From: Sphaerolaimus hirsutus | Lineage: Eukaryota; Nematoda; Chromadorea; Monhysterida; Sphaerolaimidae | Direction of reading: 5' to 3' | Length of the DNA: 64,000 bases | Assembly: GCA_964036195.1 (NCBI GenBank) | Contig: OZ038453.1 | Location: 6,525,469-6,589,468, forward strand | In this document: positions 2,288-64,000 of the stretch, in pieces | How the letters are laid out: each line of letters opens with the position of its first letter | How positions within the stretch are numbered: position 1 is the first letter of the stretch | Made by a program: the position numbers and the translations under genes | Notes under the pieces: generated by a model | The model's database searches: none | The model's input: only the letters and a program-made list of their open reading frames with translations | Told to the model about the DNA's origin: nothing

Positions 2288-4135
2288 TTAAGCATTGAAA
2301 TGGTTAAGTGCAAGACTATTTAGACATATAGCTAGTATATAAAGTAGCATATTAAATTCACCAGATTCAACATTAAGTATTGCTAGGCGAAAAATATTCC
2401 TCATACGATCAACACCGAAAGAATCATTTTCTCTAATAAGATTTGTTGTTATATAAGTGTACAATTCTTGTGAATATGGTCTGACCAATGTTTGTGCCAT
2501 TCTTCTAATCACCAAATTGGGTTGACATGTTGGATCCCAAAAACTATTGAACATCCATTGTCTTATGTGAGAGTTTGCGGTGAACACTTGAATAGCATCT
2601 TGAATCCTTTCTATTATATCTCTTTCACCACATGGTTGCTGTTGATTTGTATTCAACATGAGCATGAATACAAATGGGGCAACATGTCTAGCAAACATTG
2701 CCTGAAAAAATGGGGAGCATTTACAACTATTTTTTACTTATTAACTTAAAATATCAAAAAACAACATACAAAACAGGTTATAATAGCGCAATCATCAATG
2801 TTATCAAATACATTGATAAAATTTCTTTCCCATCTTTCAAAGCGTGGAATTATACCAGAGCTAATAACATGTCCAAGTGTTCTGTGTATTTTAAAATATA
2901 TAAAAATAATGATAGTGATATTATTAAAAACAATTTTATTACCCATATCCACTGAGGCATAAGACATCCTGTCTATACATTCTAGCTAAATATGGATGGA
3001 CATCTGTATTTATCTCTCTATTTTCAGACATGGCTTCTGGATATTGATCAAACATTTGTTGAAAACTTCTTAGTCCTTCAGTAGGTTCAGGTTGTTGCCT
3101 CAACTGTTCACGGTGAACACGGCAATTTCTATCCCAAGGATCACATTGCACCTAGGTATTTTTTATGATATAGTTTTTCAAAAAACATTGAATAGAGAAA
3201 ACTTTATCACCTTGTTTTTGGTTGAGGTCACTGTTGCAACAGGCCTAACAGGTGCATTTGTACTAGATTTCACATGGGGGTTTGCACCAGGTCTCACAGG
3301 GGGGTTTACATTGGGTCTTCCAGATGGATTTACATTAGGTCTTCCAGGGGGGTTAACATTAGGTCTTCCAGGTTGATTTGCAGTTTCACTAGTTGACATA
3401 GGTAAATTTTCATTATAAAAAGCACCCATTGTTGGATTTTGTTCATAAATAGCCCTTGCAAATCTCTGAAACATTTGACAAATTTGCAAATTCATTCAAG
3501 GTACTTAAATATTAAAAAACCAACATTTCTAAACATATCTTCCCTTCTAGCATAAGTCCCTTTATTAACTTTCAGTGATGTTCTATCAGTAGAAGTTGGA
3601 ATCAGATTATCAGGTTGACGGGAGGTTGATGCACCTTCGTTAATCCTATATTGTGATCTCAGATTTGGCTGAGGGGTTGATTGTGCATTTGAAATTTGTG
3701 GTTGAGTATTTGTAGTTGCACCAGGAGCTTGTGAAGCTTGAGTTATTTGAGTATGAATCCTTGGTGGAGGTTGGTTAGGATTTTGCACAAGATGAGGGGG
3801 GTTTTGAACAGTTTGTGGTTGTGTAGCCATTTGAGTGATTTGAGGTTGGGTGACTTGAACAACTTGATTGTTTGTGGATGGTTGAACAGCTTGTATGGTT
3901 GGATTTGTTCCACCTTGTCCATTTGCATTACCTGGCATAAATGAAGGTGCTTATAAAATAGTTAGCTAATTGTGATAAACATGAATATTATCACACCTTG
4001 GTTGGGGTAAAAGAAATCTAATCCATCAAACATATCTCCAAACTCTTCAGGTAATTCATTATTCATGCCTTTAGCATGCACAATGATGAACAAGAGCAAA
4101 AAATTATTTTTCAACATGGTCATATTTCTGAGCAT
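2288..4135 (-). CDS. Six-exon gene, secreted Gln/Pro-rich protein of unknown family
   Basis: Exons read on the minus strand are 4135-3997, 3949-3525, 3465-3211, 3151-2943, 2881-2770 and 2701-2288. All five introns are 47-68 nt with GT...AG ends, all phases join, and the total of 1554 nt encodes 517 aa. The first exon has a hydrophobic stretch (FLLLFIIVHA) that fits a signal peptide; ATGs at 4135, 4123 and 4117 all keep it. Residues of about 47-190 are rich in Q, N, T and P. Then come three or four GRPNVNP-like heptapeptides. The last roughly 245 residues look globular, with Trp and Cys (CDPWDRNC; WDPTCQP) and no clear membrane segment except a weak one near the end. It is divergent from the gene at 4664. 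Codon use is AT-rich, unlike the Hint exons. Function unknown; it could be a host gene or cargo of a large transposon. Confidence 0.72.
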
Positions 4136-4663
4136 GAGAAAAAATAAAAATTGACTGATTTGAAATAATTTTGATGCTATTCCGTTTTTAAAGGATTTTT
4201 TCAAGATAAAAATCTTATAACCTTTACAAAACCAGTTATTTTTAGAGTTGCAAACATATGTAGCTTTATAAACCAGTTATTTTGGTTTTTCAACATTTTG
4301 CACCTTCAAAAGCTGTTTTTATTTTCAAAGGTATAATATGTTTTTCCCTGAGAATCATTAACTATATCAGATAAGATATTTAAAAAGTATAAAAAGTAAA
4401 CCAGTTTTTTCAGATATTTTGTAAGATAAAATTGTAAGGTCAAAATAATTGATATTTTAAGGTGTACCCTTTTGCACCTCTAAAAATAATAGATGCAAGC
4501 TGTTGATCCATTCAAAAACAGGTTTTTTGGTTGGATTATAAAATAAGTATTTCCACTATTTCATTTCATTAAATACATATTTCATTCACAGTTGAACCTG
4601 TGTCCATTTCAAAAGTTTATGCTTTTGTATTGTACCCACAACAAAAATTTGCATCCAGACACC
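4136..4663. promoter_or_regulatory. Divergent intergenic (shared promoter) region
   Basis: About 530 AT-rich bases separate the start codons of two divergently transcribed genes. Runs of CAGTTATTTT and AAAACCAGTT-like words recur on it. No specific factor site is claimed; the arrangement alone suggests a bidirectional promoter. Confidence 0.4.
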
Positions 4664-6049
4664 ATGTCAGACCAGGTAACAGTCCCAACTAATGTAAACT
4701 GTTTATTAAGTTATTAAATGTCAATTTTTTCATAAATTGACATTTCATATCTCACAATACAATTTGCATTAATTGGGACTGTTTCAGGTTTCATCATCTA
4801 ATCAACTCTTATCAACTGTGGTTTATAGTTCACAAAGTCCTTCAAACTCTATGGAGGAAACCACAGATGGTGAGACATGTGAGAGTGAAGGTATTCAAGC
4901 AAGTGATGATGACACAGATCACACTTATGAGTATTGTGAAGATAGTGATGATTCTGCATATAGATTGAAAAAAGAAAATATGACAGATGCAAAAATAAGG
5001 TGTCACAATGTCACCATAAACAGGTCAATAAGGCAGTTGAAAAAAATGCGCAAATCATACTACAAACTGCTCAGATCTATGGTGCAGAACAAAAAAGTTT
5101 GTTGCATGTAGCTATTTTAATGAGAACATCATATTTATATATATACATGTCAAATTTTATCTTTTACAGAATTTGACACCATGTGTGTTAAAAACAGGGA
5201 AAAATTTGCCAGTTGACATGAAAATTGAGCAGATTGAAAAAAGCATGGCTAAAATGTCTGATTGCCTTAATCAGACCTGCATGTTTGCAATGGAGGATTT
5301 AAACTCCATTGTTGAAAACGGGGAATCATTGGCCGACCTAGAAAAAATGAAAACTCGTTTGGAACATGAAGTAAAAATTTACATTTTTTATGCCCAAATT
5401 TGAAATAAATTATATTTTTGATATTTTTTTCAGCTTGTTTCAGTAAAAAAATGGTCTGGAAACAGATTGTATGATTTGAAATCAAGGATTGATTACCTGA
5501 CCAAAATTATTGGAAAAATTGTCAAAATTGAAGTTCACCCAGTGAAATTTCACAAGTTAAACAATTTGAGGGTGAAATATGCAAAATATGAGTTGCCCAG
5601 ATCTGTCAGTTTAGAACCGTTGACATCAGGTGATGACAATGATGAATGCGGACCAATTGCTTACAGTAAGTAGCTCATTCTTCTATAAATTGAATTAATA
5701 TATAAAGTTATTATATTTGGTACTCAGTGAGTGCAAAGTATAAGCACCTGGTGCTGAAACACAAGCAATCTGTGCTTACAAAAAGGCAAAAATGCAAAGT
5801 GTGCTCTGAACAAAATTTGCGCATGTTTGCAAGGCTATGTCCAAAAATAATTAAGAGTTTGTTAATATTTTAGCTAAATTTTTCCACTATTAGATGCATG
5901 GTTACTCTAGTAATTTTTCTATCCCCATCTCTCTAGTGTGCAAAAGGATGGATGATGAAAAGCAGGAGCATAAATCATTGGTTTACAATGGGTATGTGAA
6001 ATGTGCAAAATGTTATGAAATGAAAACAAATGGTTCCACCAGCTGCTAG
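4664..6049 (+). CDS. Six-exon gene, acidic coiled-coil protein with Cys motifs
   Basis: Exons are 4664-4675, 4788-5096, 5170-5370, 5434-5665, 5728-5856 and 5937-6049. Introns are 62-112 nt with GT...AG ends, and all phases close to give 996 nt and 331 aa ending TAG. The first exon codes only four residues (MSDQ). Residues of about 20-60 are strongly acidic with Ser/Thr. The middle is lysine-rich and helical, with heptad-like leucines and methionines around IEQIEKSMAKMSDCL. The C-terminus holds paired cysteines (CKVC, CPKIIKMC, CAKC) that could bind zinc. No signal peptide or membrane segment is seen, so it is probably intracellular, perhaps nuclear. The last two junctions both split an ATG codon. 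Family not recognised. Confidence 0.7.
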
Positions 6050-17039: not shown

Positions 17040-17621
17040 AAAATTGAGACAACAACAACAGAAACAATGAAAACAACACAGACAACACAAACATCAACAA
17101 CAACAGCAGAACCAATGGAAACAATACATAAAGCACAAACACCACCACCAACAGCAAAGACAAAGCCAAAAAGTGACATGATCACAAATGTGGCAAATGC
17201 GTATGCACTGTTGCAGGAAACACAAACAACACAGACAACAGAGACAACAAAGAAAGCACAGACAACAGAGACAACAGAGAAAGCACAGACAACAGAGACA
17301 ACAGAGCAAGCACAGACAACAGAGACAACAGAGAAAGCACAGACAACAGAGACAACAGAGAAAGCACAGACAACAGAGACAACAGAGAAAGCACAGACAA
17401 CAGAGACAGCAGCACCACCAGCAGCACCACCAGCAGCACCACCAGTAGGACCACCAGCAGCACCACCAGCAGGACCACCAGTAGGACCACCAGCAGCACC
17501 ACCAGCAGCAAAGACAAAGCCAAAAAGTGACTGGGAGTTATTTGCAGATGTGGATGCAGAGTTGGAGTGTGACACATCCAAGTGGCCTGGCTATTTTGAT
17601 CGAGTGTTTGATGAGGCATGA
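17040..17621 (+). CDS. Terminal exon with ETTEKAQT octapeptide repeats
   Basis: After the acceptor AAATTCAG at 17032-17039 a frame runs 193 codons to TGA. It starts with Thr-rich sequence and has a KTKPKSD motif. Then come about seven 24-bp units coding ETTEKAQT, then an Ala/Pro/Gly block (PPAAPPVGPPAAPPAG). It ends in an acidic aromatic tail, SDWELFADVDAELECDTSKW. The tail and the KTKPKSD motif recur in the exon at 19656, so the frame is under selection or recently duplicated. The repeats resemble mucin-like or adhesive linker regions. Upstream exons are not identified. An ATG at 17067 could be a start if the exon is first. Confidence 0.62.
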   Translation, partial: KIETTTTETMKTTQTTQTSTTTAEPMETIHKAQTPPPTAKTKPKSDMITNVANAYALLQETQTTQTTETTKKAQTTETTEKAQTTETTEQAQTTETTEKAQTTETTEKAQTTETTEKAQTTETAAPPAAPPAAPPVGPPAAPPAGPPVGPPAAPPAAKTKPKSDWELFADVDAELECDTSKWPGYFDRVFDEA

Positions 17622-19583: not shown

Positions 19584-19655
19584 AATATGATTTCAGTCGG
19601 TTGTATGTGATTACACTTTGGATATAAATATATGGTTGGGACTACATCCACTCAG

Positions 19656-19832
19656 CAAATCCCATGTTCATCAGAGACAACAGAGAAAGCACACACAACA
19701 CAGACAGCACCACCAGCAGCAAAGACAAAGCCAAAAACTGACTGGGAGAAATTTGCAGATGTGGATGCAGAGTTGGAGTGTGACACATCAAAGTGGTCTG
19801 GCTATTTTGATCGAGTGTTTAATGATGCGTGA
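19656..19832 (+). CDS. Short paralogue of the ETTEKAQT exon
   Basis: From an acceptor-like CATCCACTCAG the frame runs 58 codons to TGA. It has only one octapeptide unit (SETTEKAHT) and a very short Ala/Pro block. It then has the same tail as the exon at 17040 with few changes (TDWEKFADVDAELECDTSKW). This is a second, repeat-poor terminal exon or a separate small gene. The strong conservation of the tail against divergent flanks argues that it is coded protein. Confidence 0.58.
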   Translation, partial: QIPCSSETTEKAHTTQTAPPAAKTKPKTDWEKFADVDAELECDTSKWSGYFDRVFNDA

Positions 19833-24689: not shown

Positions 24690-25244
24690 AATGGTATCCT
24701 AACAGTGAACAGTAAAGGCCCAAGGGGGAAAGGTGCCATTCAACAAGTTACAAAAATAAGTAAAGTAATGACAAGTAAAATTGACTTATCACATTACTTT
24801 ATCACTTCACTTACATACTAGGTACTTTTTATGTATACTTGTGGAACTGGCCATAGTTGTTAAAACGTATTTACGCTTACTCAAAAAGTACGTATACGTT
24901 TACGTATACTTTGAAAAGAGTACCGTACTTGCTTTTATGTATACTTTTTGAAAGTACTCGAGTATGGAAAACGTATTTCAGAGGCCTTTTATAGCGTTTA
25001 AAGCTATAGCCGTTTATAGCTTTTATAACGTTTTATAGGCCTTTTCAAGGTATAGATGGGGAAAAGGGAGAAAAACAGTGAAAAATAGGAGAAAATGGCC
25101 AAAAATGGCTGAAAATACGCACATAACACATGTACTAGTGAATTTGAAGGTTAAAATCGTTTTAAAAAAGTATGAAAATTAGTGATTTTGGTTGAAAATT
25201 GGGGCAAAATTCCTAAAAATTACTCACTTTTACATTGTCTGGAG

Positions 25245-25393
25245 TGATGGAAGTGTTGCCAAATGAAGCGACGGCAAGTTGATTCGTAAGTTTATGACAA
25301 TGTCTCGACCTCGAATAGTGCCCAAGTGGCTATATTTAAACAATCACAAGAGGAAAAAGATATCGCACATTTCACGGATCCACCAATCTCACA
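25245..25393 (-). repeat. 3' LTR of the gypsy element
   Basis: 149 bp, TG...CA ends in element sense, identical to 33387-33535. A TTTAAATATAG stretch could act as the TATA box. Confidence 0.97.
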
Positions 25394-25405
25394 TCATTCC
25401 CCTCC
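25394..25405 (-). promoter_or_regulatory. Polypurine tract of the gypsy element
   Basis: In element sense GGAGGGGAATGA directly precedes the 3' LTR, as expected for the plus-strand primer of reverse transcription. Confidence 0.75.
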
Positions 25406-25479: not shown

Positions 25480-27074
25480 TCAACGGTGGGCGCGTGGGGA
25501 ACGTGACCTACGGCGGGATGTGTTTCGCGCCACACGCGGGCGGCTAATTCGCGCGGCTGTGTTGCGAAACACAGCCTGAGGATGCGGGCGGTTAGAACGT
25601 TGGCCCTGGTGGGTTTCAACATGGCGGCCAAGTTCACTTAGGCGAGCTTCGGCAGCGATAGCTTCCGGACTGGGTGCCGGAGGATCGCCAGCGGTTGCCA
25701 CTTGCTGTGCGCGCTGTCTGCGCACCTCCGGAGGGTTGGGTGCGAGTTCCCCAACTATGTCCACGTCCGGCGCGAACTCACGTCGCCGGTAGAAAGTAGA
25801 ACGGGCGTCTAAGTCGAGTGGCACCCGCTGCAAAAACAGTTGACGTGAAATAATCAAAATTGTGATAGCCAACCGAACTCAAACAAATTTTAGAAGTGAT
25901 GGTAGATTTTAGAAATAGGTTAAATTGACACTAAAAGTGAAATTTAGTGTGTTAAAAATCAACAATAAATGAGTATTACTCTTCATAGGTATTACCACAA
26001 ATTATTTAGACAAAGCCCACATCATACCGTTGAGAAACCCGAAGTTTCAGTTTGCGTGAACGAGTTGGTGGTAGGGACTTGACGTTGCATGCGGGCAACA
26101 TCACGTTCATGCACAAGCCGATTGATAACGGTAGCTTGTTCATTTCGAAACGCGTTTGACTCTTCCAAAGCAGTGTGATAGTTGTCACACTCGACCTATA
26201 GTGAGGACACAAATTGAATTTCCACAAGTTGAATTGCAAAGTGGGACAAAAAAGCACTTTGAATCCAACTATGGTGCGATGATGAAGTTCCGCTTCGTCG
26301 CGTAACGAGACCACATCGCCTCTCACGTCATTGAACCGAGCCGTGAGCGTGGCAAAATCCTGCCAATAAATTATCCCAGAATTTTTAGCAAAACCGCTTT
26401 GTATCGATTCCAATGAAATGAAAGAAAATAGATAGTAGAATTTACAATTACATTTTCACAACATGACCGAGTCGAAGTGTTCCTTCAGAAAATGACAATT
26501 CGTTGAATACACACCTTGCAAATACGGTCATATTTAGCCACTGTTTTGCGCTGTTTCAACTCTTGACGGCTCAAAGGGCCATCCCCGGGTCCCGTACTGC
26601 ATTCTGGTAAATCTTGTTGATTTTCGGTCGCAGCTTGAGGGGCTGTAACTGGCTGAGGTAGTAGATTGGTGCCAGATAGTGAATCATCTTCACCATCGGT
26701 GGCTTCTTCTGGCTTGTCCTCCAAAATTTGAGCTTCGGTTTTGTCAGAGGAAATGGAGACCCTTGAAATAATGGTTAAAGTCATAATAGACGTAAGAATT
26801 GTATTTCAAATTATGGGATTTATTTAAAAACTGTAAACTGCACAGAATTTCATTAAGAAATGACTCAAAGTATAATTTGATTGTATTTTTCAAGTTTTTA
26901 AAGCAAATAAATGTTTAGGAAATTTAGACAATTGAAAATGTAAATAACTGGCAAGTTACGCAACAGTCAAACGTATACGTGCCTGTCGTCATCCATAGGT
27001 TGATCGGTTGGAGGTGGTATAACAGCTTGAACTACGAAAATCGCACCAAGCACAAAAATAGCTGTCAAACGCAT
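25480..27074 (-). CDS. Five-exon extra gene carried by the gypsy element
   Basis: Exons on the minus strand are 27074-26983, 26761-26515, 26359-26270, 26195-26028 and 25827-25480. Phases close throughout (945 nt, 314 aa, stop at 25480-25482). Introns are 221, 155, 74 and 200 nt; three are GT-AG and the first needs a GC-AG donor (ACAG/GCACGT) to stay in frame. Residues 1-17 form a hydrophobic leader typical of a signal peptide or anchor. Next comes an acidic Pro/Glu region, then about 85 residues of likely coiled coil (exons 3 and 4). The tail is basic and Arg/Ser-rich (SRRRSRSPRAHR). No second membrane segment or fusion-like motif is visible, so an envelope role is not supported. It sits where env-like genes lie in other elements. 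It may be a captured host gene. Function unknown. Confidence 0.68.
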
Positions 27075-27261
27075 TTTTTGTACTGTTTTGCATTAACTGA
27101 AGTGCAATGATTTTGGATGAGTTTTTGTAAATTAAGTTTTCATTAGAATAAATGGAGCGCGTTGGGGGAAATTAATAGACGTTAGCTTACACGTCAAATG
27201 AAAGTAATGTAATGTTATCAAAAGTAATTATAACCAGTAAGTAGCGAAAACAAGTGTAAAA

Positions 27262-28755
27262 TTATAGAGCGGGTGGTAATTTCCAGCAAAAGCGATGCGG
27301 GATTTTAGCGATAGAATCATTCACTTTAACATACAGTGTCGGACCTTCAACACTATGAACTTCAAATGGACCCTGGAATTTTGGTAGTGTTCTGTCTTGT
27401 GTGAAATTTTTTATCATGATTTTGTCACCTGTTGTTATATCAATTTTAGATTTAGAATCGAAATATTTTTTGAAAACTGCTCTGCTGCGGTCGCTATGTG
27501 TTTGAGCTAAAATGCGTGCGGCATCACTGTCAATTGTTTTGGCCGCCACAAAAAACAGATTCCAGTGTGGCAGAAAACCATATACTAGATAGAACGGGCA
27601 GCATGCGGTGTTTTTATTGAATGCCAGATTGTGTTTCAGAACAACTAAAGGCAATAAATCTTTCCAATGGCAATTAGGATTTTCCTTTTTAACAATTGCG
27701 TAAATGTCACGAAGTCGCCCGTTAACGCCCTCAACCATTCCATTTGCCGCAGGATTGTGCGACAAAGTCGGTGAATGCGATGTGCCAAATTTTTCACATA
27801 AATTTCGGAATGTTGAATTGACATACTCGGTGCCTTGATCCGAGATGACCAAGCGTGGTGCACCGACGACCAAAAATATATTCTTCCAAATTTGACGTGA
27901 TACTGTATCTGCCCGGCAGGATGATACCGGGAATGCAATCACATATCGAGTCAAAGCATCGACTGCGACCACTACTTTCGAATTCGGTTTGTCATGTTCG
28001 AACTGGAAAGTGTCAATATGCAGAATTTCAAACGGCTGTGATGGCGTGTCTACAGCACCAATTGGACCAAAATGTAGTCTATGTCGTTTAAATTGCAAAC
28101 ATTGCGTGCAAGCGGTGCAGTATTGCGTGACATCCTCCTTCAAGCTCGGCCAAGAAAAGTATTTGCACAATAGGTCAATTGTACGCTGTTGGCTGCCATG
28201 ACTAGCGTAAATCCCCATATGGGCTTCAGCCAAACATGCCTGCTGCCAGGTGCGTGGGGGCCAGATGGCGTACGAATTGCTATTATTAGCCGCCACAAAA
28301 TGCAAAACGCCATCAATTAAAAGGGCGCCAGGAACACTGTTGGCATCAGAAATCAATTGAGCGCAAATGCTAGATAGCTCCGGGTCTTCAGATTGTATTT
28401 TATGCCAGTCGGCTGAAAAAACAGTTGAAATTGTTTTTTGCATGTGCGTTTCCGTTGGGATAACTGTCCCTTTGGGGATCATTCTAGCTGCGACACCTTT
28501 GATTAATGAGGTAGGGTGGTCTAATTCATCATCACCAAATTCTGGCTCTGAAATCGGATTACGAGACAGTGAATCTGCTACGACATTGAGCTTGCCCGCT
28601 CGGTGTCGGAACTCCAAAACTCTATCCTGCAGGTAGATAGACCAACGTTCCAATTTACTGTGAGCCGGCGTCCTCAACACCTGGGCGATCCCACTATTAT
28701 CAGTGATGACAATTAAGCGTTGCCCCTCGACAAAATCGGCTAAGCGCCGCACAGC
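27262..28755 (-). CDS. pol: Gypsy pol, end of RNase H plus integrase
   Basis: This is the same frame as the upstream gag-pol, starting just after an in-frame TGA. It opens with the last RNase H aspartate (ITDNSG). Integrase follows: an HHCC zinc finger (AHMGIYASH, then CTACTQC) and the catalytic triad HIDTF, ISDQGTEY and MVEGVNGR. The second Asp and the Glu are exactly 35 residues apart. A GPF motif (KFQGPFEV) near the C-terminus replaces a chromodomain, which is absent. It is probably not a separate gene but the downstream part of one polyprotein. Integrase would insert the cDNA in the nucleus. Confidence 0.93.
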   Translation of the reverse strand, partial: AVRRLADFVEGQRLIVITDNSGIAQVLRTPAHSKLERWSIYLQDRVLEFRHRAGKLNVVADSLSRNPISEPEFGDDELDHPTSLIKGVAARMIPKGTVIPTETHMQKTISTVFSADWHKIQSEDPELSSICAQLISDANSVPGALLIDGVLHFVAANNSNSYAIWPPRTWQQACLAEAHMGIYASHGSQQRTIDLLCKYFSWPSLKEDVTQYCTACTQCLQFKRHRLHFGPIGAVDTPSQPFEILHIDTFQFEHDKPNSKVVVAVDALTRYVIAFPVSSCRADTVSRQIWKNIFLVVGAPRLVISDQGTEYVNSTFRNLCEKFGTSHSPTLSHNPAANGMVEGVNGRLRDIYAIVKKENPNCHWKDLLPLVVLKHNLAFNKNTACCPFYLVYGFLPHWNLFFVAAKTIDSDAARILAQTHSDRSRAVFKKYFDSKSKIDITTGDKIMIKNFTQDRTLPKFQGPFEVHSVEGPTLYVKVNDSIAKIPHRFCWKLPPAL

Positions 28756-31700
28756 TCAAGCAATGCAGAGACTTTCCAGCTCCGCAGCTGAAAAAGTGTT
28801 ATGAGGATGTGTCAATCGTTTCGAGATGTATGATATCGGGTGGCTTTTTTTATCATCGCCGTATTGTGATAGTACGGCCCCCAAACCTAATGCACTCGCA
28901 TCAGTCTCTAAATAGTATGGTCGTCCATCACGAATAGGGTGAATCAAAACAGGTGGGGTTGCTAAACAAAATTTCAAGCTATTCCAAGCATCCAGCATCT
29001 CCTCTGTCCACTCAAATGGTGTAGCGCCCATTTTTGGCACCCTGCCTTTCAAAATACTGTACAGGGGCGCCGCTAGACGGCTAAAATTTGGGATAAAATG
29101 ACTGTAGTAAACACATTTGCCAAGAAAACGTCTCAACTCTTGTTTAGTGTGGACTTTGGGTAGATCAGTCATCGCCGTCACCCTTGAGGGTGTGGGTGAA
29201 ATGCCTTCAGCGGTTATTTGATGACCCAAGTATTTCAGCGTAGATGTGAAAATATTGCATTTGCGGGGTTGCATGCGCAAATTTGCCCAGCACAACCTAG
29301 AAAACAAACGTCTCAAATGAATCAAATGTTGCGCCACTGTGTCGCTGCAGCACAAAATGTCGTCAATGTATGCGCGCACCCACGCTCGGGCCAAATTCTC
29401 ATTTAAATTGACCAGCATTAAGTTGACCATTCTCTGGAAAGTAGCCCCCGCGTTTACTGTTCCAAATGGCATGCGCGTATACCTGTACTGTCCGAGGCTG
29501 CACACAAAAGACGTTTTTTCCCGGGAGTCCTCGTCAGCGAGGGGCACGTTATAGTAGCCGTGTCGGATGTCTATAGCCGTAAAAATCTTCCTGCCTGCAA
29601 ATTCAGAGAGAATTTCGCCAATGCGAGGCAACGGATAGCTATCTATTTTTGTGATCAAATTTATTCTTTTAAAATCCACGCAAAATCGATAATCCGCATC
29701 GCCTTTTGGGGCTATTGTGATGGGTGATGTCCATGGGCCATCTGAATGTTCAATGATGCCCTCTTTGAGCATAAGTTGGATAGATTTGTGAATGAATTCA
29801 CGTTTTACTGGCGGTTCGTATCGTGAAGCTTGTTTTATTGGAGGGTGGTTTGGATCAGTGAGTATAGCATGTGACACCAGTGGGGTGCATCCCACATCAT
29901 AATCATGGCATGAAAAAATGTCATGAAATTCAGCAATCAAATCTTCAAATTGTTTCTGTTCATTAGCATCTAAAATAATGCGATTCGCTGACGGTAAATT
30001 GGCTAGAATGAATGTGACGCGTTCCGCAATAGTCAATTCTGGCGGTGATACTTCTTGTGTGAATTCGTCCTTGGGCGGTTGAGGCAACAAAATAGCGCCC
30101 GCACAGGTTTGTCCACCTGTGTATTCTGCTCCAAAATTTGCAGCACATTCCGGAGAATTTAACAAATGGCCATTTTCTGCCGGCGTGAAAAATTGTGTGC
30201 GTGGATAAACATTGATTTGGGCGACAATATCGCCCTCTTTGAGATTAACAGGTGAAGATGTCGGGTTGAATAGTGTTAGAAAATACCCACTATTAGGGGA
30301 AATGTCTACCCTGGTATTGTACATTTGTAGCCCTGTGTCAGGTTCGCTTAAGCGATCAGCTGCTGAAATGAATAAAGCTGAGTTCTTCCACATTAGGTTG
30401 GCTACGTGCTGTGGTTTTTGCGGTATTTTCAATGGCACACAGACATAGCCATTCGCCGGTACATAAATGTCTTTTTTCAGTTGAACATTTTCCGTGAGCA
30501 AATTTGTGAATTTTGTTTGCAAGCGATCAAATTGTGCTTGTGCGGTTTCATTTTCGGTGGGCACGACCTCAGTTAGTTTATCCAAGGCCAGAGGTATTAG
30601 CCACGACAATTTAAGAAAAGACATAATGTCTGTTCCAACCAAAATGTCATTCATGGCCGTTGAATCATAATTCACGAGACATACAACCAAAACTTTCCTT
30701 AAAACTTTGTCAATAGGAGAAATGTGTTCAATGTATAAAGGGATTTCATACATTGAGCCTTGAGAAGATTTTCCATTTAGCATGTGAACCTCAATTTTAG
30801 TGGGGCGAATGTGTTTGTCAATATCTAAGCCACTTTTCTGCGCAATGTCTTGAAGCAAATGCAATGGCAAAATCGTACGGTTACAACCAGTGTCAAGTAG
30901 TCCTTTGCAGGGGACATTCTCAATTTTCATTTCGGCGAAAATTTGCGGTCCGGTGGATTTTTCGATTCTAATACACAACTGCTGGTTTTCTCCAACACAT
31001 GTCAATGCTGTGGTATGTTGGTCATTGTTGATTACATAGTTATCACCGTAAAGTTGGCAAGTGTCATATTTATTAGAGCTAGGGCAATCAAAATCAGTAG
31101 AACAAGTGTCACACGATCTAAAATCATCTGTTTTCAAAGCATGTTCATGGAACATCAGAGGTGTCGGCGGGAAAAACGTTGTTGAAGAATTCTGCCACCC
31201 TAGCCGTGGCGTCACCTGCGGTGGATAATGTGTAAATAATTTCATCCAGAAATTCCTCTGCCAATCAGGGAACCCACTAGGATCTGAATTGAATGATGCC
31301 GCGAGTCTATGTCTGAATTCGTCACAATAGACCCCCCAGGGGTTTTCATTTGTAGCAGAAATACCATTGTCGGCATCAAAATCTTCGTTATTTTCCTCTG
31401 TTTCGTCAGAGAACCCTGTATGAGCTATTTTTGCGGTTATTTGTTTAGGTAGGGTTGCGTCGCTTGTATGAGGCGGCCCGAAGCGTTGCACCTGACCGTA
31501 GCCTTGTGATTTTGGCGCCAGCAATTTTGGGTCTACCGTTGCACCCATTTGTTGTTCGCGTTGGGTGACGCGACAGTCAGAGACACGGTGTCCCACATGG
31601 TTTGGGCGTGAGCACCACGGGTTTGTGGCGTTATCTGCCATGATTTTATTTATATTGAATCGAGTCGATTGGCGAGGTGCCACATTCTGCGTGCGTGGAC

Positions 31701-33234
31701 TTATTGAATTGAAGTTAACCGGTTTTTTGACTTGCAAAAAGTAATCTTCGACCATTTGCACCATTTGAATGGTGGACAAATTTTTCACTTTTCCTAAGTT
31801 AGAAAAATTGGCCATAGCAAATCTGTCATAGCGTTGATCGTCATATTTGGCCCATAGTTTTGTCGCCACAATGCGATCAACTGTCAGTCTGTCAAAATTT
31901 ACAGACTCGCGCAATTCTCGCGGAAATTTGGCAAGCAAACGTAGGTAAAATTCCAGAAAAGACTCGTTTCGGCTCATTGCCGCGGAATCCCATTCCGCCA
32001 TCGAGTATACTTTTTTGACATCTTTAAAGATGGCGCCCAAATCGGTTAGGACTTTTTCATAGTTCAATAAATCTTCGGGAATGCATAATGTCGTTAGTAC
32101 ACGGTGGGCATCCCCGGTCAATTTTGTGGACAATACCTCAACCCAAAACTGTTGCAATAGGCTAGGATCTGCGACGGACAGTGCCGCCATTTGTGCGGCG
32201 CGTCGCCATTCGGTAAAAGAGATTAAGTCCAGCTTATTAGAGAAAATCGGAATTTTGTCCATCAAATTCGGTTTTGCCATCATCCAGTAATTCAATAAAT
32301 CAACTTTTGCGGTGTGTGCAACAGCGCCGGGTAATTTCGTTAAGTCTTTCACTAACCAAGGGTCTTTGTTTTTCGCAGGTTCAGTCAGGATGACAGGATT
32401 TTGCGCATTTGTAGTCCTGCCTTGTTCTGTTTCAGCGGCCGGGGCGTGTTCGAGCGTCACTGGCTTTTGTGCATTTGTAGCCGAATCCTGTTTTGTTTTG
32501 ACCGCTGTAGTCTGCTTGAATGTCGCATCCGGTTCGAGCGCGGTCTGCAAGTTGTTGTTGTTGGCTTGTTGTAGTGCTGCAAATCTCACTAGCAAATCGT
32601 CATAGGCATTTTGTAAAGATTCAGATGAATTTTCGGGAACATGAAAATTATTTCCCTCAGCTGGGGTTTGCACGCGATAGCCCTTGAACGTTGAATTAAA
32701 TTGATTTATTTCCCTGGACCAATCGACACCGTGTTTAATCGCTGTGTCATAAAACCATTGTGTCAAACGATCATTTTTCAATACCATCAAATTTTGCACA
32801 GGTGAATATTGCAAATCCACGTGTTTCACCGTGTTGACTGTAACCGGTGAATTTTGACGCATGTACCTGCACGCGGCAATTACGTCGATTCCCTGAGGCG
32901 GCGGTTCCTGAAATCCCACCTCATTGCCCGAGAATGAGTCGGGCTGAGTAGCCGACATGCTGCTGCGTGAACTCGCCGACAAACGCGAATTCAAAATTAC
33001 GCGGTCGCGCATTGGGCGCACCGCTAAAGAATCGGGTAGAGAGTAGTGAGCCACCGGAAAATAAGGCTCCTGAACGCGACGCTTATCCTGTGCATCGCGT
33101 AACGCCTGATCTTGAAAGCGCCGCACCAATTCCGGGTGTACGCGATCAGGCGGTAACGCGTTCACGGGATGAGAACGCGTGTGGGGACGCGGTGGCCGCG
33201 CCGTAGCATCTGATTCATTAGAATGAATGCTCAT
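28756..33234 (-). CDS. gag-pol: Gypsy gag-pol polyprotein up to an in-frame stop
   Basis: The open frame codes about 1492 aa from the ATG at 33234 (an alternative ATG is at 33273). Gag comes first. Near residue 540 is a zinc-knuckle-like stretch, CSRPNHVGHRVSDC, with Pro where the second Cys should be. The aspartic protease has LLDTGCNRTIL near 779. Reverse transcriptase has the AYIDDI catalytic box near 1288, and RNase H begins with ETDASALGLG near 1443 and ELESLC near 1488. Gag and Pol are one frame with no frameshift. The TGA at 28756-28758 falls at a usually tryptophan position of the family, so a recent nonsense change is the simplest reading. Confidence 0.94.
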   Translation of the reverse strand: MSIHSNESDATARPPRPHTRSHPVNALPPDRVHPELVRRFQDQALRDAQDKRRVQEPYFPVAHYSLPDSLAVRPMRDRVILNSRLSASSRSSMSATQPDSFSGNEVGFQEPPPQGIDVIAACRYMRQNSPVTVNTVKHVDLQYSPVQNLMVLKNDRLTQWFYDTAIKHGVDWSREINQFNSTFKGYRVQTPAEGNNFHVPENSSESLQNAYDDLLVRFAALQQANNNNLQTALEPDATFKQTTAVKTKQDSATNAQKPVTLEHAPAAETEQGRTTNAQNPVILTEPAKNKDPWLVKDLTKLPGAVAHTAKVDLLNYWMMAKPNLMDKIPIFSNKLDLISFTEWRRAAQMAALSVADPSLLQQFWVEVLSTKLTGDAHRVLTTLCIPEDLLNYEKVLTDLGAIFKDVKKVYSMAEWDSAAMSRNESFLEFYLRLLAKFPRELRESVNFDRLTVDRIVATKLWAKYDDQRYDRFAMANFSNLGKVKNLSTIQMVQMVEDYFLQVKKPVNFNSISPRTQNVAPRQSTRFNINKIMADNATNPWCSRPNHVGHRVSDCRVTQREQQMGATVDPKLLAPKSQGYGQVQRFGPPHTSDATLPKQITAKIAHTGFSDETEENNEDFDADNGISATNENPWGVYCDEFRHRLAASFNSDPSGFPDWQRNFWMKLFTHYPPQVTPRLGWQNSSTTFFPPTPLMFHEHALKTDDFRSCDTCSTDFDCPSSNKYDTCQLYGDNYVINNDQHTTALTCVGENQQLCIRIEKSTGPQIFAEMKIENVPCKGLLDTGCNRTILPLHLLQDIAQKSGLDIDKHIRPTKIEVHMLNGKSSQGSMYEIPLYIEHISPIDKVLRKVLVVCLVNYDSTAMNDILVGTDIMSFLKLSWLIPLALDKLTEVVPTENETAQAQFDRLQTKFTNLLTENVQLKKDIYVPANGYVCVPLKIPQKPQHVANLMWKNSALFISAADRLSEPDTGLQMYNTRVDISPNSGYFLTLFNPTSSPVNLKEGDIVAQINVYPRTQFFTPAENGHLLNSPECAANFGAEYTGGQTCAGAILLPQPPKDEFTQEVSPPELTIAERVTFILANLPSANRIILDANEQKQFEDLIAEFHDIFSCHDYDVGCTPLVSHAILTDPNHPPIKQASRYEPPVKREFIHKSIQLMLKEGIIEHSDGPWTSPITIAPKGDADYRFCVDFKRINLITKIDSYPLPRIGEILSEFAGRKIFTAIDIRHGYYNVPLADEDSREKTSFVCSLGQYRYTRMPFGTVNAGATFQRMVNLMLVNLNENLARAWVRAYIDDILCCSDTVAQHLIHLRRLFSRLCWANLRMQPRKCNIFTSTLKYLGHQITAEGISPTPSRVTAMTDLPKVHTKQELRRFLGKCVYYSHFIPNFSRLAAPLYSILKGRVPKMGATPFEWTEEMLDAWNSLKFCLATPPVLIHPIRDGRPYYLETDASALGLGAVLSQYGDDKKSHPISYISKRLTHPHNTFSAAELESLCIA

Positions 33235-33365
33235 AGCGAAAGAAATGATTAGCTGGTAATACACAGGTAGCATGTAGTTAGAGCAGCTAGCAAACACGTC
33301 GAATAGCCGAAAAACCTGCGTGCCTGCCGCTGGGACACTCGGAGAGCAAAGTTGCACAATCCAAG

Positions 33366-33383
33366 TCCCCAGCACGTCCACCA
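33366..33383 (-). promoter_or_regulatory. Candidate primer-binding site
   Basis: In element sense TGGTGGACGTGCTGGGG starts three bases after the 5' LTR. Beginning with TGG (complement of tRNA CCA) and the spacing suit a tRNA primer; which tRNA is not determined. Confidence 0.6.
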
Positions 33384-33386
33384 CAA

Positions 33387-33535
33387 TGATGGAAGTGTTG
33401 CCAAATGAAGCGACGGCAAGTTGATTCGTAAGTTTATGACAATGTCTCGACCTCGAATAGTGCCCAAGTGGCTATATTTAAACAATCACAAGAGGAAAAA
33501 GATATCGCACATTTCACGGATCCACCAATCTCACA
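33387..33535 (-). repeat. 5' LTR of the gypsy element
   Basis: 149 bp, identical to 25245-25393. It would contain the promoter. The 4 bases outside (33536-33539, GGAG) match those at 25241-25244. Confidence 0.97.
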
Positions 33536-33759
33536 GGAGGGAAAAGTATTTTACTCATGTTTACTCATGAGTAAGAGTAAAAAAGTTTTACTTTACGTTT
33601 TCTGTACTCAAGGTACTGTTATATATTGTCAAGGTTATATTGTCAATTTTCTGCACTCACGTTTACGTATACTTTCAAAAAAGTTTGGTACTTTTAACAA
33701 CTCTGGAACTGGCATCAAACAGAGCTCTGGGAGTGGTCCCAAAGGTGTATCAAATAGCA

Positions 33760-36474: not shown

Positions 36475-36682
36475 ATCATATATAATGAGAACATTAACCT
36501 AATGCTATTCAATGTGAAAAGCACTGCATTAGCTCGGTTACATACAGCATGTATGAGCAGCAAAAATTTTGGCACTGGCGCTTGGCGTGCGCCGTGGTCT
36601 AGAAAAGCGACATGGCACTTGGCGCTGTTTTGATGTGGCACCATTGGCGCTTGCATTAACAGCTTGGAAGGCTACAAAACAC

Positions 36683-36849
36683 TAGTGATGTAAATAGCGC
36701 CAGGACTCTTGCGCCAAGCGCCAAAAGCGCCATGGCGCTTTTGGCGCCAATTTTCTCTGGCACCATTGGCGCTTGGCGCTTTGTTTCAAAAGTGATTAAA
36801 AAATGCCATGGCACTAGGCGCCAAAGTGTTGGCGCTTTTTCCATCACTA
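36683..36849. mobile_element. hAT-like GCGCCA mini-element
   Basis: Ends TAGTGATGTAAATAGCGCC and GGCGCTTTTTCCATCACTA are clear, but the 8-bp flanks differ (CAAAACAC, GTCTAGAG). It may be a recombined or rearranged copy. A further degenerate block lies just upstream at 36572-36655. Confidence 0.65.
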
Positions 36850-39662: not shown

Positions 39663-39831
39663 AAACACACCATTCAATGTGTTAGCCATTTGTTATAATC
39701 TCATTTACCACTGTTCAATGTACTGTTTCACTTCTAGTCACGAACATTCAAGAAAACGTTGTATGAATCAACAGTTGACATAAAAATGTACTTTTTGGCA
39801 GGGATCACCACTCATCATGTTATCTCATGAC

Positions 39832-40091
39832 TAGTGATGTGAAAAGCGCCAGGACTTTGGCGCCAAGCGCCAAAAGCGCCATGGCGACCCCTAACGCCAA
39901 GCGCCAATGGCGCCAAGCGCCAGCGCCAGGCGTTTTGTTCCTAGCGCCAGACAAAAGAAGCGCCAAGCGTCAAAAGCGCCAGGGCACTTTTCATGGGCAT
40001 GGCGCCACAGCAATATAGCGCCAAGCGCCATGGCGCTTTTTGCTTTGGCGCTAGCGCCAGGCGCCAACACCATGGCGCTTTTACATCACTA
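39832..40091. mobile_element. hAT-like GCGCCA mini-element
   Basis: Ends TAGTGATGTGAAAAGCGCC and GGCGCTTTTACATCACTA with perfect CTCATGAC duplications (39824-39831, 40092-40099). The whole 260 bp is GCGCCAAGCGCC words. Confidence 0.95.
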
Positions 40092-58813: not shown

Positions 58814-58885
58814 GCCTCTGTAGTCTAGTGGTTAGGGCACTCGTGTTCTATACGAGAGGTGCGGGTTCGATTCTCGCCTGAGGCA
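58814..58885 (+). tRNA. tRNA-Arg (UCU)-like gene
   Basis: A 72-nt cloverleaf can be drawn. The acceptor stem GCCTCTG/CTGAGGC has one T-T mismatch. The anticodon stem CTCGT/ACGAG has loop GTTCTAT (anticodon TCT at 58847-58849), and the T arm is GCGGG-TTCGATT-CTCGC. The internal promoter boxes TAGTCTAGTGG (A) and GGTTCGATTCT (B) are intact, and a TTTT follows at about 58893. The D arm resembles tRNA-Glu/Asp. It lies at the centre of a foldback element, so it may be a transposon-captured tRNA or pseudogene. No intron. Confidence 0.7.
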
Positions 58886-62611: not shown

Positions 62612-62820
62612 CTCTGGCGCTTTTTTGGCGCTTTAAAAAATGGTAGCGTCAGCGCCAATGGCGCCACTGGAAAGTAGCGCCAAGCGTCAAAAGCGCCATG
62701 GCGCTTTTCGGAAACACGGCGCCAAGCGCCAATGGCGCCACAGCATTTTAGCGCCAAGCGCCAAAAGCGCCATGGCGCTTTTCGCTTTGGCGCCAGCGCC
62801 ATGGCGCTTTCACATCACTA
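62612..62820. repeat. GCGCCA element lacking its left end
   Basis: Ends GCGCTTTCACATCACTA at 62820. No matching left terminus is present. Confidence 0.7.
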
Positions 62821-63060: not shown

Positions 63061-63811
63061 GGACCTAGAGGAAACATAAATGTTGTATGCTCAGATAACA
63101 AACACTTACTTAACAATGGCAAACCCTTTGAAAAACTCTTTCTTAAGTCTTTTCTTCTAAAATGACTTAATAATTTGATTATTTCCTGAAAATTGTTTTT
63201 ATAATTTTCAAATTTTCAAATTCTCGATTTTTTTTTGCAATATTGTAACATACATATTTGTAAACATAAACACACATATCAAGCACTAAAACGCACATAT
63301 TATGTTGTAAACTAAATAACTTTAATTTTTTGCGATTTCGCGTTCATGCGTCCCATTATGTTGTACATTGGCGGATATTAGTGCCGTTCGAGTATGTTGG
63401 GGTTTGGGGTTGGGGCTATGACGAAATCTTTTTGTTTCCTCGAATAATCCCCCAGTCCCGAGATGAGGGGAGTCTATAAAAAGGTGTCATTTTGAACGGC
63501 TGATCTGGACGTTGGGCGGATCTTTTGAAGCTCCGTACATCATCCATTTCTGGACCAATCTGGGTCGATCAACGCTTAAAATGATCACAATAAACTGGAG
63601 ATTCCACTGTAATCTTCAGATCATCTGTACATTTAATTAGATTTCCCATACAAGAAAATATTGCGAACTCTTGTATGAAATTATCATTTTGAAAATGCAT
63701 AGAGATAACCTGAGCATCACCATGGGATCTCCAGGTTATTGAGATCATTTTAAGTGTTCATCGGTGAAAAACGGCTGAGAAACGGATTTGGAGGTTTGAC
63801 ATTGCACACAT
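63061..63811. other. Intergenic DNA with a small palindrome
   Basis: About 63567-63763 is a loose palindrome (CGATCAACGCTTAAAATGATC and GATCATTTTAAGTGTTCATC). A TAACAATGGCAAACCC start at 63112 resembles the GAAAATTTGAAA hAT-like end. No gene. Confidence 0.45.
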
Positions 63812-64000
63812 TAGTGATGGAAAAAGCGCCAGGCTTTCGGCGCCAAGCGCCAAAAGCGCCATGGCGCTTTTCTGATCCCAGCGCCAAGCGCCAATGGCGC
63901 CAGAGCAAAATGGCGCCAAGCGCCAAAAGCGCCATGGCGCTTTTCTGAACCTCAGCGCCAAGCGCCAATGGCGCCAGAGGGTAATGGCGCCAAGCGCCAA
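63812..64000. mobile_element. hAT-like GCGCCA mini-element, cut by the window end
   Basis: Starts TAGTGATGGAAAAAGCGCC and continues as GCGCCAAGCGCC words to the last base. The right end lies outside. Confidence 0.85.

Follow-up and report, generated by a model that had tools for sequence, protein, structure and literature searches.

A multi-intron accessory gene in a Ty3/Gypsy retrotransposon family of the nematode Sphaerolaimus hirsutus, with introns that were likely carried through unspliced RNA

A stretch of 64,000 nucleotides of the Sphaerolaimus hirsutus genome (the window; C4:6525469-6589468; GC 38.7%, CpG observed/expected 0.81) holds on its minus strand a Ty3/Gypsy retrotransposon that is complete at both ends and that carries, between the integrase part of pol and the 3' long terminal repeat (LTR), a five-exon gene in the same orientation, called here the accessory gene (Table 1). 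The two LTRs are identical (149/149), and their TG..CA ends are flanked by a 4-bp target-site duplication (TSD), GGAG, the ends and the TSD being read by eye; with the primer binding site (PBS) and the polypurine tract (PPT), the window copy has the end features of a Ty3/Gypsy element, and over the five LTR-paired copies described below the TSD and the PBS were each found in four. The Pfam domains follow one another in the Ty3/Gypsy order of reverse transcriptase (RT), RNase H, and integrase (RVT_1, 6e-26, and RT_RNaseH_2, 6e-20, on gag-pol; rve, 3e-15, and Integrase_H2C2, 1e-13, on the integrase stretch). A single in-frame stop (28756-28758) stands between the RNase H and integrase stretches, and given this stop, the window copy is probably not autonomous. 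The RT region gave 788 matches at an expect value (E) <= 1e-3, the best 120 of 788 being 31-42% identical and some of them named Gypsy or 17.6-type pol, and ten RT relatives were aligned at 37-43% identity; the integrase had 23 public matches, only 21-28% identical. Relatives were found neither in viral contigs nor, by one repeat pattern, in genome contigs.

Table 1. Features of the element and a tRNA gene of the window in window coordinates
Feature	Position	Strand	Remarks
5' LTR	33387..33535	-	149 bp; TSD GGAG outside at 33536-33539
Primer binding site TGGTGGACGTGCTGGGG	33367..33383	-	3 nt past LTR
Possible leader splice donor	33318..33323	-	only CAG/GC in the window; aligned site GGCA/GTRAGC in C16, C1, C14
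gag-pol	28756..33234	-	likely gag start ATG at 33234; RT 29215-29709; RNase H match 28762-29010
Integrase part of pol	27262..28755	-	H2C2 zinc finger; rve core 27751-28041; gag-pol frame continued after stop
Upstream motif ATTACTTTTGATAAC	27214..27228	-	between integrase and exon 1; conserved; candidate internal promoter or weak 3' splice site
Exon 1	26983..27074	-	signal-peptide-like leader; found by gene finder; ATG and hydrophobic leader in 12/14 scored copies
Intron 1	26762..26982	-	GC-AG, 221 nt; AG/GC donor in 13/13 scored copies with exon 1
Exon 2	26515..26761	-	acidic, Pro/Ser/Thr-rich region
Intron 2	26360..26514	-	GT-AG, 155 nt; donor GT in 16/16 rows, acceptor AG in 24/24 rows
Exon 3	26258..26359	-	initially 26270-26359; start of probable coiled coil
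Intron 3	26196..26257	-	donor AAA/GTGC, 62 nt
Exon 4	26028..26195	-	probable coiled coil, continued
Intron 4	25828..26027	-	GT-AG, 200 nt; donor GT in 19/24 rows
Exon 5	25480..25827	-	ends in Arg/Ser-Pro tail SRRRSRSPRAHR; stop TGA
Polypurine tract GGAGGGGAATGA	25394..25405	-	before 3' LTR; read from sequence
3' LTR	25245..25393	-	149 bp; TSD GGAG 25241-25244 precedes on + strand; re-found in genome search
tRNA-Arg (TCT) gene	58814-58885

In the initial annotation the five exons closed in phase as 945 nt with the stop, encoding 314 amino acids, and this structure stands except at the end of exon 3, which probably lies 12 nt later, at 26258 (AAA/GTGC), also in phase, giving a gene of 957 nt and 318 amino acids. 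The later end is preferred because two diverged loci of the genome search below that have intron 3 (L054 and L055) show a GT only there, and because a third locus without intron 3 (L051) reads through VTGFK; one locus, L053, has a GT only at the end given initially. Exons of the window gene have a GC content of 0.45-0.64, compared with 0.26-0.37 in its introns. A codon model trained on the element's own gag-pol, in-frame versus off-frame, ranked the proposed frame best of the three same-strand frames in all five exons (total +41 vs -42 and -54); in exon 3, a higher score came from one antisense frame (2.69 vs 2.07). The joined exons scored 40.3 against a mean of -28.1 (standard deviation 10.8) for 2000 base shuffles, none of which reached 40.3. 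A de novo gene finder, run unhinted, recovered exons 1, 2, 4, and 5 to the base with a score of 56.7 and skipped exon 3, which has a weak donor; the maximum over 100 dinucleotide shuffles was 16.4, and the plus strand of the region scored 3.3. Among 54 flanking segments, the top score was 52.3, at a low-complexity repeat near 17100, followed by 36.5 and 32.0. With a flanking repeat at 52.3, the gene-finder score alone is not exclusive, and the five exons might then be taken for a chance reading of non-coding DNA; this was rejected by the codon-model and comparative tests and is close to inconceivable given the codon results, the conservation of exons and splice sites in other copies, and the signs of purifying selection described next.

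The genome (348 Mb, 762 contigs) was searched for copies, with the LTR and the predicted protein each used as a query. The LTR gave 12 matches, that is, the window pair, four further pairs, and two singles, and all four further pairs carry the accessory gene beside the 3' LTR; the window copy is named W and the four others C13, C16, C14, and C1. Neither single LTR-like match, L013 (C4:24300402) or L014 (C1:21725195), has a partner among the matches listed, and no accessory gene was found in the 3-4 kb fetched on one side of them. With the protein, at least 161 exons matched at E <= 10, and the majority of those listed had E <= 1e-3; 20 further loci were taken, mainly by rank, from more than 40 distinguished by eye, which makes 25 loci in total with the LTR-paired copies. 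RT and/or integrase was seen upstream of the gene, on its strand, at 19 of these 20 loci (all but L056), and pol or a pol remnant is present in all five LTR-paired copies, so that pol adjoins the accessory gene in 24 of the 25 loci. The PBS sequence of the window also follows the 5' LTR in C16, C1, and C14 and is absent in C13, the gag start ATGAGYRTTCATTC is common to W, C16, C1, and C14, and PPTs similar to that of the window precede the 3' LTR in the four other copies.

Open-frame intactness was scored for the five LTR-paired copies: exons 2-5 are present in all of them without stops or frame breaks, exon 2 of C1 being truncated at its start, and the exon lengths differ only by multiples of 3. 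The most conserved exon is exon 3, with 90-100% amino acid identity over 30 residues in the four other copies, and exon 1 is missing in C14 and C1. Two junctions were read by eye in the latter copies. The pol deletion of C14 (L012 ~1880-1930) holds an inverted PBS and LTR end, as if made during reverse transcription, and the deletion of C1 (L011 ~1850-2016) fuses the RNase H frame of pol to accessory exon 2, in frame; L039 is protein-identical to C1 over exons 3-5 and has the integrase and exon 1.

A comparison of nonsynonymous and synonymous changes (dN/dS), which the initial annotation had called for, gave 0.056 for W-C13 (287 codons, dS 0.96) and 0.077 for C16-C14 (292 codons, dS 1.01); in the other eight of the ten pairs, dN was 0.22-0.24 and dS was 2.3 or more or saturated. 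By these comparisons, the accessory gene is under purifying selection. The gene could still be thought of as a captured host gene that travels, introns included, as a passenger with no role in the element: its separate signal-peptide exon and small exons look host-like in our judgement, and other LTR elements acquire ORF3s, that is, third open reading frames (ORFs), from outside (PMC5408684). Strong purifying selection across element lineages makes this very improbable, as does the neighbouring pol, present in 19 of the 20 further loci; the exon search proposed in the initial annotation brought further element copies and no recognisable host parent among the 25 loci opened from the matches listed. 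The gene also appears to have a history of its own within the family. While the integrases of W, C13, and C16 form nearly a star, with 115 sites uniting W and C13, 111 uniting W and C16, and 98 uniting C13 and C16, in the accessory gene W and C13 are strongly united, by 143 sites compared with 32 for W and C16 and 39 for C13 and C16. The two histories thus differ in these three copies, which suggests that element lineages have exchanged the 3' module with its introns by recombination (L009 and L010 compared with the window).

Retrotransposition is expected to erase introns, and the presence or absence of introns is routinely used to separate retrocopies from DNA copies. In this family, introns 2, 3, and 4 occupy the same positions in all five LTR-paired copies, and intron 1 is found in W, C13, and C16, with a remnant in C14. 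The LTRs within a copy are nearly identical (W, 149/149; C13, 99.2% of 128; C16, 97.9% of 140; C1, 98.6% of 146; C14, 99.3% of 140), and TSDs are readable in W, C16, C1, and C14 (GGAG, GAAT, GTAC, and GTAG, respectively), none being seen to flank the LTR pair of C13. Near-identical LTRs, set against a gene dS of about 1 or more, mean that each insertion is recent relative to the splitting of the genes, and from the shared positions it follows that the introns were in a common ancestor and were carried through RNA in separate lineages. The initial annotation had reasoned from the window alone that the introns survived reverse transcription, and the five copies bear this out; its "very recent" date for the insertion agrees with the identical LTRs, but an LTR of 149 bp bounds the age less tightly. 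The introns themselves vary in length among the five copies (80-274 nt for intron 2 and 67-272 nt for intron 4), and many copy pairs align in them little better than shuffled sequence. We are very confident that an intron-bearing accessory gene has been kept by selection and passed on through unspliced RNA. Since the introns passed through independent retrotranspositions, they must still be present when the genomic RNA for packaging and copying leaves the nucleus.

Splice sites were aligned over the 25 loci by script. For donor 1, 13 of 14 rows have GC, and the remaining row comes from C1, a copy without exon 1, and matches by chance; L043, mis-anchored by the script, shows an AG/GC donor by eye. 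GT donors are far commoner than GC donors in animals, and the weak GC-AG first intron pointed out in the initial annotation has thus kept its unusual donor in every scored copy with exon 1. At acceptor 1, 14 of 16 rows show AG, C1 being truncated there. For donor 3, a GT is present at AAA/GT in 21 of 24 rows and at the site 12 nt upstream in 20 of 24; acceptor 3 is AG in all 24, including L051, which lacks intron 3. The length of intron 3 is 59-67 nt in 20 of 24 loci and 69-74 nt in three, and L051 has only 9 nt there, apparently coding. At acceptor 4, AG is found in 19 of 24, and four of the rest lack the intron. Fourfold sites of exons 3 and 4 are unchanged in the five copies at 4 of 25 positions, three of these four being no more than 10 nt away from the intron 3 or intron 4 donor, a hint, in small numbers, that selection acts on the RNA near weak donors. 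That the weak donors are selected to preserve genomic RNA is a view toward which we lean slightly.

In five of 24 loci (L037, L051, L054, L055, and L056), intron 4 is absent exactly at the junction, with a gap of 0. Exons 4 and 5 of L037 are 93% and 88% identical to those of C1 and are joined precisely, and since C1 and L039 have intron 4, a loss is the simplest reading, in which the precise junction would be the trace of a partly spliced RNA that was copied. The other four loci are diverged (29-44% identity in exon 3), L051 lacking intron 3 as well, and for them loss cannot be told from gain elsewhere. According to the initial annotation, copies without this open structure, or with random changes in the exons, would have spoken against the gene; copies close to that of the window showed the opposite, whereas these five loci do lack intron 4, and one of them also intron 3. 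The same junctions bear on the idea that introns were kept by copying from an antisense template or by spread at the DNA level, as suggested for Penelope elements. An antisense template is indeed one possibility raised for the retention of introns in Penelope-like elements (PMC3846280); for the present family, however, the near-identical LTR pairs, the PPT, and the PBS and TSDs, each in four of five copies, point to tRNA-primed reverse transcription of sense RNA, and, judging by the precise intron loss, a spliced RNA of sense polarity seems to be copied on occasion, which leaves an antisense or DNA-level route highly improbable. Partial or regulated splicing, as postulated in the initial annotation, is thus supported by the comparative data, whereas active splicing, and its regulation by an element protein as in complex retroviruses, would be steps beyond them. 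We nonetheless think it quite likely that active members of the family make a spliced mRNA.

The predicted product begins with an exon 1 peptide of 29-31 residues, in which an ATG and a hydrophobic core were scored by start codon and hydropathy; the script found no ATG in L047 or L043, of which L043 was wrongly anchored and has an ATG visible by eye. With hydropathy and the -3/-1 rule for signal-peptide cleavage sites, cleavage is predicted at the same place in W (VQA/V), C13 (VSA/V), and C16 (VFG/V), the likely site in W being VQA/VIPPP. After the leader come an acidic exon 2 and then a heptad contrast across the exon 3-4 region, which was matched by 10 of 2000 shuffles for residues 112-150 and by 105 of 2000 for residues 112-181, residues 150-181 alone being no better than chance; a coiled coil is probable in this region. 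The tail reads RRRSRSPRARR in C13, C14, and C1, RRRSRSPRAHR in W, and HRRPHSPRSRR in C16. The N-terminal leader, the coiled coil, and the Arg/Ser-rich tail described in the initial annotation are all recovered, as a signal-peptide-like start, a probable coiled coil, and an Arg/Ser-Pro tail. The window protein has 3 Cys, far apart, and one N-glycosylation sequon, and no second hydrophobic segment is found in it (best 19-residue mean outside the leader, 0.2). None of 2867 candidates from a protein collection matched at E <= 10, and PDB and Pfam returned only weak coiled-coil-like or chance matches, the best in Pfam being TPR_MLP1_2 (E 0.007, in two of five members).

The position between the integrase and the 3' LTR, the signal-peptide-like start, and the probable coiled coil would all suit a degenerate or unusual fusion glycoprotein of the envelope (Env) type. 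The start does resemble a signal peptide in 12 of 14 copies by hydropathy and ATG; on the other hand, a C-terminal transmembrane anchor and a relation to known fusion proteins were not found, nor was a convincing relative in Pfam or PDB, and the 3 Cys and single sequon also tell against it. The product is accordingly not classed as Env, a membrane anchor having been tested for and not found; an Env identity seems very unlikely, and the initial remark that the protein resembles no Env holds as far as tested. A tail of the Arg/Ser-Pro kind is usual in nuclear RNA-binding proteins, and the element must export RNA that holds several introns. These points, with the probable coiled coil and the presence of the Arg-rich Ser-Pro tail in all five aligned copies, favour a factor similar to Rev or to CERV, the protein of the nematode element Cer1, namely a nuclear RNA-binding protein that exports unspliced genomic RNA; CERV, the product of a spliced mRNA of five exons, is required for genomic RNA to be exported (PMC10309623). 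The signal-peptide-like start, with its ATG in 12 of 14 exon 1 copies, would however route the protein to the endoplasmic reticulum (ER), and the three scattered Cys of the window protein form no cluster of the CERV type, and so we regard a factor of this kind as rather unlikely. Our best functional guess is instead an accessory protein in the env position that is secreted or lumenal: secretion or a lumenal place is fairly probable, and a role in particle transfer, not RNA export, is proposed with somewhat less than even confidence.

Two regions may bear on how the mRNA acquires its 5' end. Between the PBS and the gag ATG lies a possible leader donor, which is the best-scoring one in three of the four leaders compared. 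Between integrase and exon 1, the octamer ATTACTTT occurs in 12 of 14 upstream segments (a count made without shuffle control), often as ATTACTTTYKATAAC with an AG ~20-30 nt downstream, form and spacing being read by eye, and it is extended there as ATTACTTT(TG/CT)ATAAC. As a candidate TATA box for an internal promoter, GTTATAA turned up in 7 of the 14 segments, compared with 0.6 on average after shuffling (maximum 4 in 500 rounds), but plain TATAA is at chance level (10 of 14 vs 9.8 shuffled). For the ATTACTTT motif, a weak 3' splice site together with a branch point is one candidate role, and an internal promoter another.

Taken together, we consider it likely that this family has a long-resident accessory gene in the env position of a Ty3/Gypsy element, with four spliceosomal introns in the orientation of the element, and that it maintains an unspliced genome beside a spliced message. 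A separate pool of RNA would be spliced into the accessory mRNA. This mRNA might begin as a subgenomic transcript, in which the leader donor is spliced to an acceptor close to the ATTACTTT..ATAAC motif; alternatively, an internal promoter might lie at this motif. Weak sites, chiefly the donors of intron 1 (GC) and intron 3 (AAA/GTGC, a poor site), would slow splicing and spare genomic RNA, and rare copying of partly spliced RNA would account for the precise loss of intron 4 in one copy. With less assurance, the product may enter the ER by its signal peptide and form coiled-coil oligomers, its Arg/Ser-Pro tail may bind RNA or another polyanion, and it may serve, secreted or in a lumen, in the release of particles or in transfer between cells rather than as a classical membrane-anchored Env.

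Several observations weigh against this interpretation. Both the spliced and the unspliced transcripts are inferred from sequence, and all five LTR-paired copies look defective, which concerns present-day activity: W has one stop in pol and C16 one stop elsewhere in pol, C13 is missing the PBS and the gag start (its pol was viewed over the last third or so of a kilobase, at the integrase end), and the 3.6-3.7 kb fetched for C14 and C1 showed no integrase and lacked RNase H at least in part. Exon 1 is not recognisable in nine of the 20 further loci (L042, L046, L048-L051, and L054-L056). The leader donor is degenerate in the window copy, and an acceptor directly before exon 1, a candidate that was tried and rejected, is seen in W, C13, and C16, with no AG within 45 nt in L037 and L038. 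L050 has no AG at acceptor 1, L048 none at the aligned place of acceptor 4, and donor 3 is ambiguous, with L056 having a GT at neither of its two sites and L053 at the upstream one only; the absence of intron 4 in five loci tells in part in the same direction. Some introns do align: W and C13 match in both intron 3 (z ~11) and intron 2 (z 6), and C16 and C14 in intron 3 (z ~11), so that the introns are not random everywhere. Finally, an Arg/Ser-Pro tail on a secreted protein is an odd combination.

In a further reading, the gene would encode two proteins, one secreted, from the exon 1 start, and one cytosolic or nuclear and RNA-binding, from an internal Met or from mRNAs lacking exon 1, the introns being a selected switch that, through the retained GC donor and other weak sites, splits one transcript into genome and message. 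An internal Met at the end of exon 1 (motif PM-D/E-DD) occurs in eight of the 12 exon 1 peptides listed and is not universal; the hepatitis B precore/core pair, in which a signal peptide goes with an Arg/Ser-Pro tail, offers a comparison. We rate this arrangement as quite unlikely; if true, it would combine Rev-like and Env-like roles independently of retroviruses and Cer1.

Elsewhere in the window, dispersed palindromic repeats with GCGCCAAAAGCGCCATGGCGC occur in both orientations (36679-36742, 39828-39891, 62645-62798, and 63808-63960). A low-complexity open frame rich in Thr, Glu, Ala, and Pro, with short tandem repeats, spans 17067-17621, and a shorter related stretch lies ~2.2 kb on (19652-19830). 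Possible host gene exons at 2291-4276 (-) and 4773-5400 (+), where the segments from 1900 and 3800 scored 32.0 and 36.5 in the gene finder, gave nothing above the cut-offs in Pfam.

An LTR family with a multi-intron gene and an intron-loss copy in one genome represents a natural experiment on the balance between genome and message in an element with no recognisable Rev or Env; it would suggest that retrovirus-like control of splicing arose more than once, and the retained GC donor is a concrete cis-element that can be tested. In complex retroviruses such as HIV-1, with Rev and the splicing of env, the genomic RNA stays unspliced and weak sites feed the spliced mRNAs. The present family is similar to them in the likely leader donor between PBS and gag in three of four leaders, and it differs in that no Env or Rev relative was found, no overlapping accessory frames were seen, and the introns lie inside one accessory gene. 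At the level of titles and abstracts, no LTR retrotransposon with this arrangement was found in the literature, the nearest being Cer1, a Gypsy-type LTR element. The logic is the same in both, namely an LTR element with an unspliced genome and a multi-exon accessory message, the spliced mRNA being predicted here. In Cer1, the genomic RNA retains the splice sites, exons 1-3 and 5 of CERV share the frame of the polyprotein, and CERV, which overlaps gag, is a nuclear protein of 517 amino acids with a predicted leucine zipper, a Cys-rich region, and no obvious homology outside nematodes (PMC10309623). By contrast, the present gene is placed entirely downstream of pol and has exons of its own and four private introns, and its product of 318 amino acids has a signal-peptide-like start and no Cys-rich region; the gene is hence not classed as CERV, from which its place, the start of its product, and its private introns differ.

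Other mobile elements share single traits with this family. In the Env-less elements of the MDG1 group of Drosophila, sORF2 is a small polybasic accessory protein serving cell-to-cell transfer, and sORF2-like proteins are transmembrane proteins of 63-107 amino acids, usually encoded upstream of gag and downstream of pol in seven of 22 lepidopteran consensus sequences (PMC11952523); the gene described here differs in having multiple exons and a product without a transmembrane anchor. The ORF3s of bdelloid rotifer LTR elements likewise follow pol and are varied, coiled-coil and transmembrane proteins among them, typically from spliced messages (PMC5408684). They are similar to the present gene as extra ORFs downstream of pol, whereas the proteins differ and the main text of that paper does not contain the word "intron" (PMC5408684). 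Penelope-like elements, lastly, keep and spread introns (PMC3846280). They belong to another class, the element here having true LTRs and an RT with RNase H and integrase in place of the Penelope RT/GIY-YIG endonuclease and pLTRs; the retention of introns is nevertheless common to both, and what the present LTR family keeps are the introns of its own gene.

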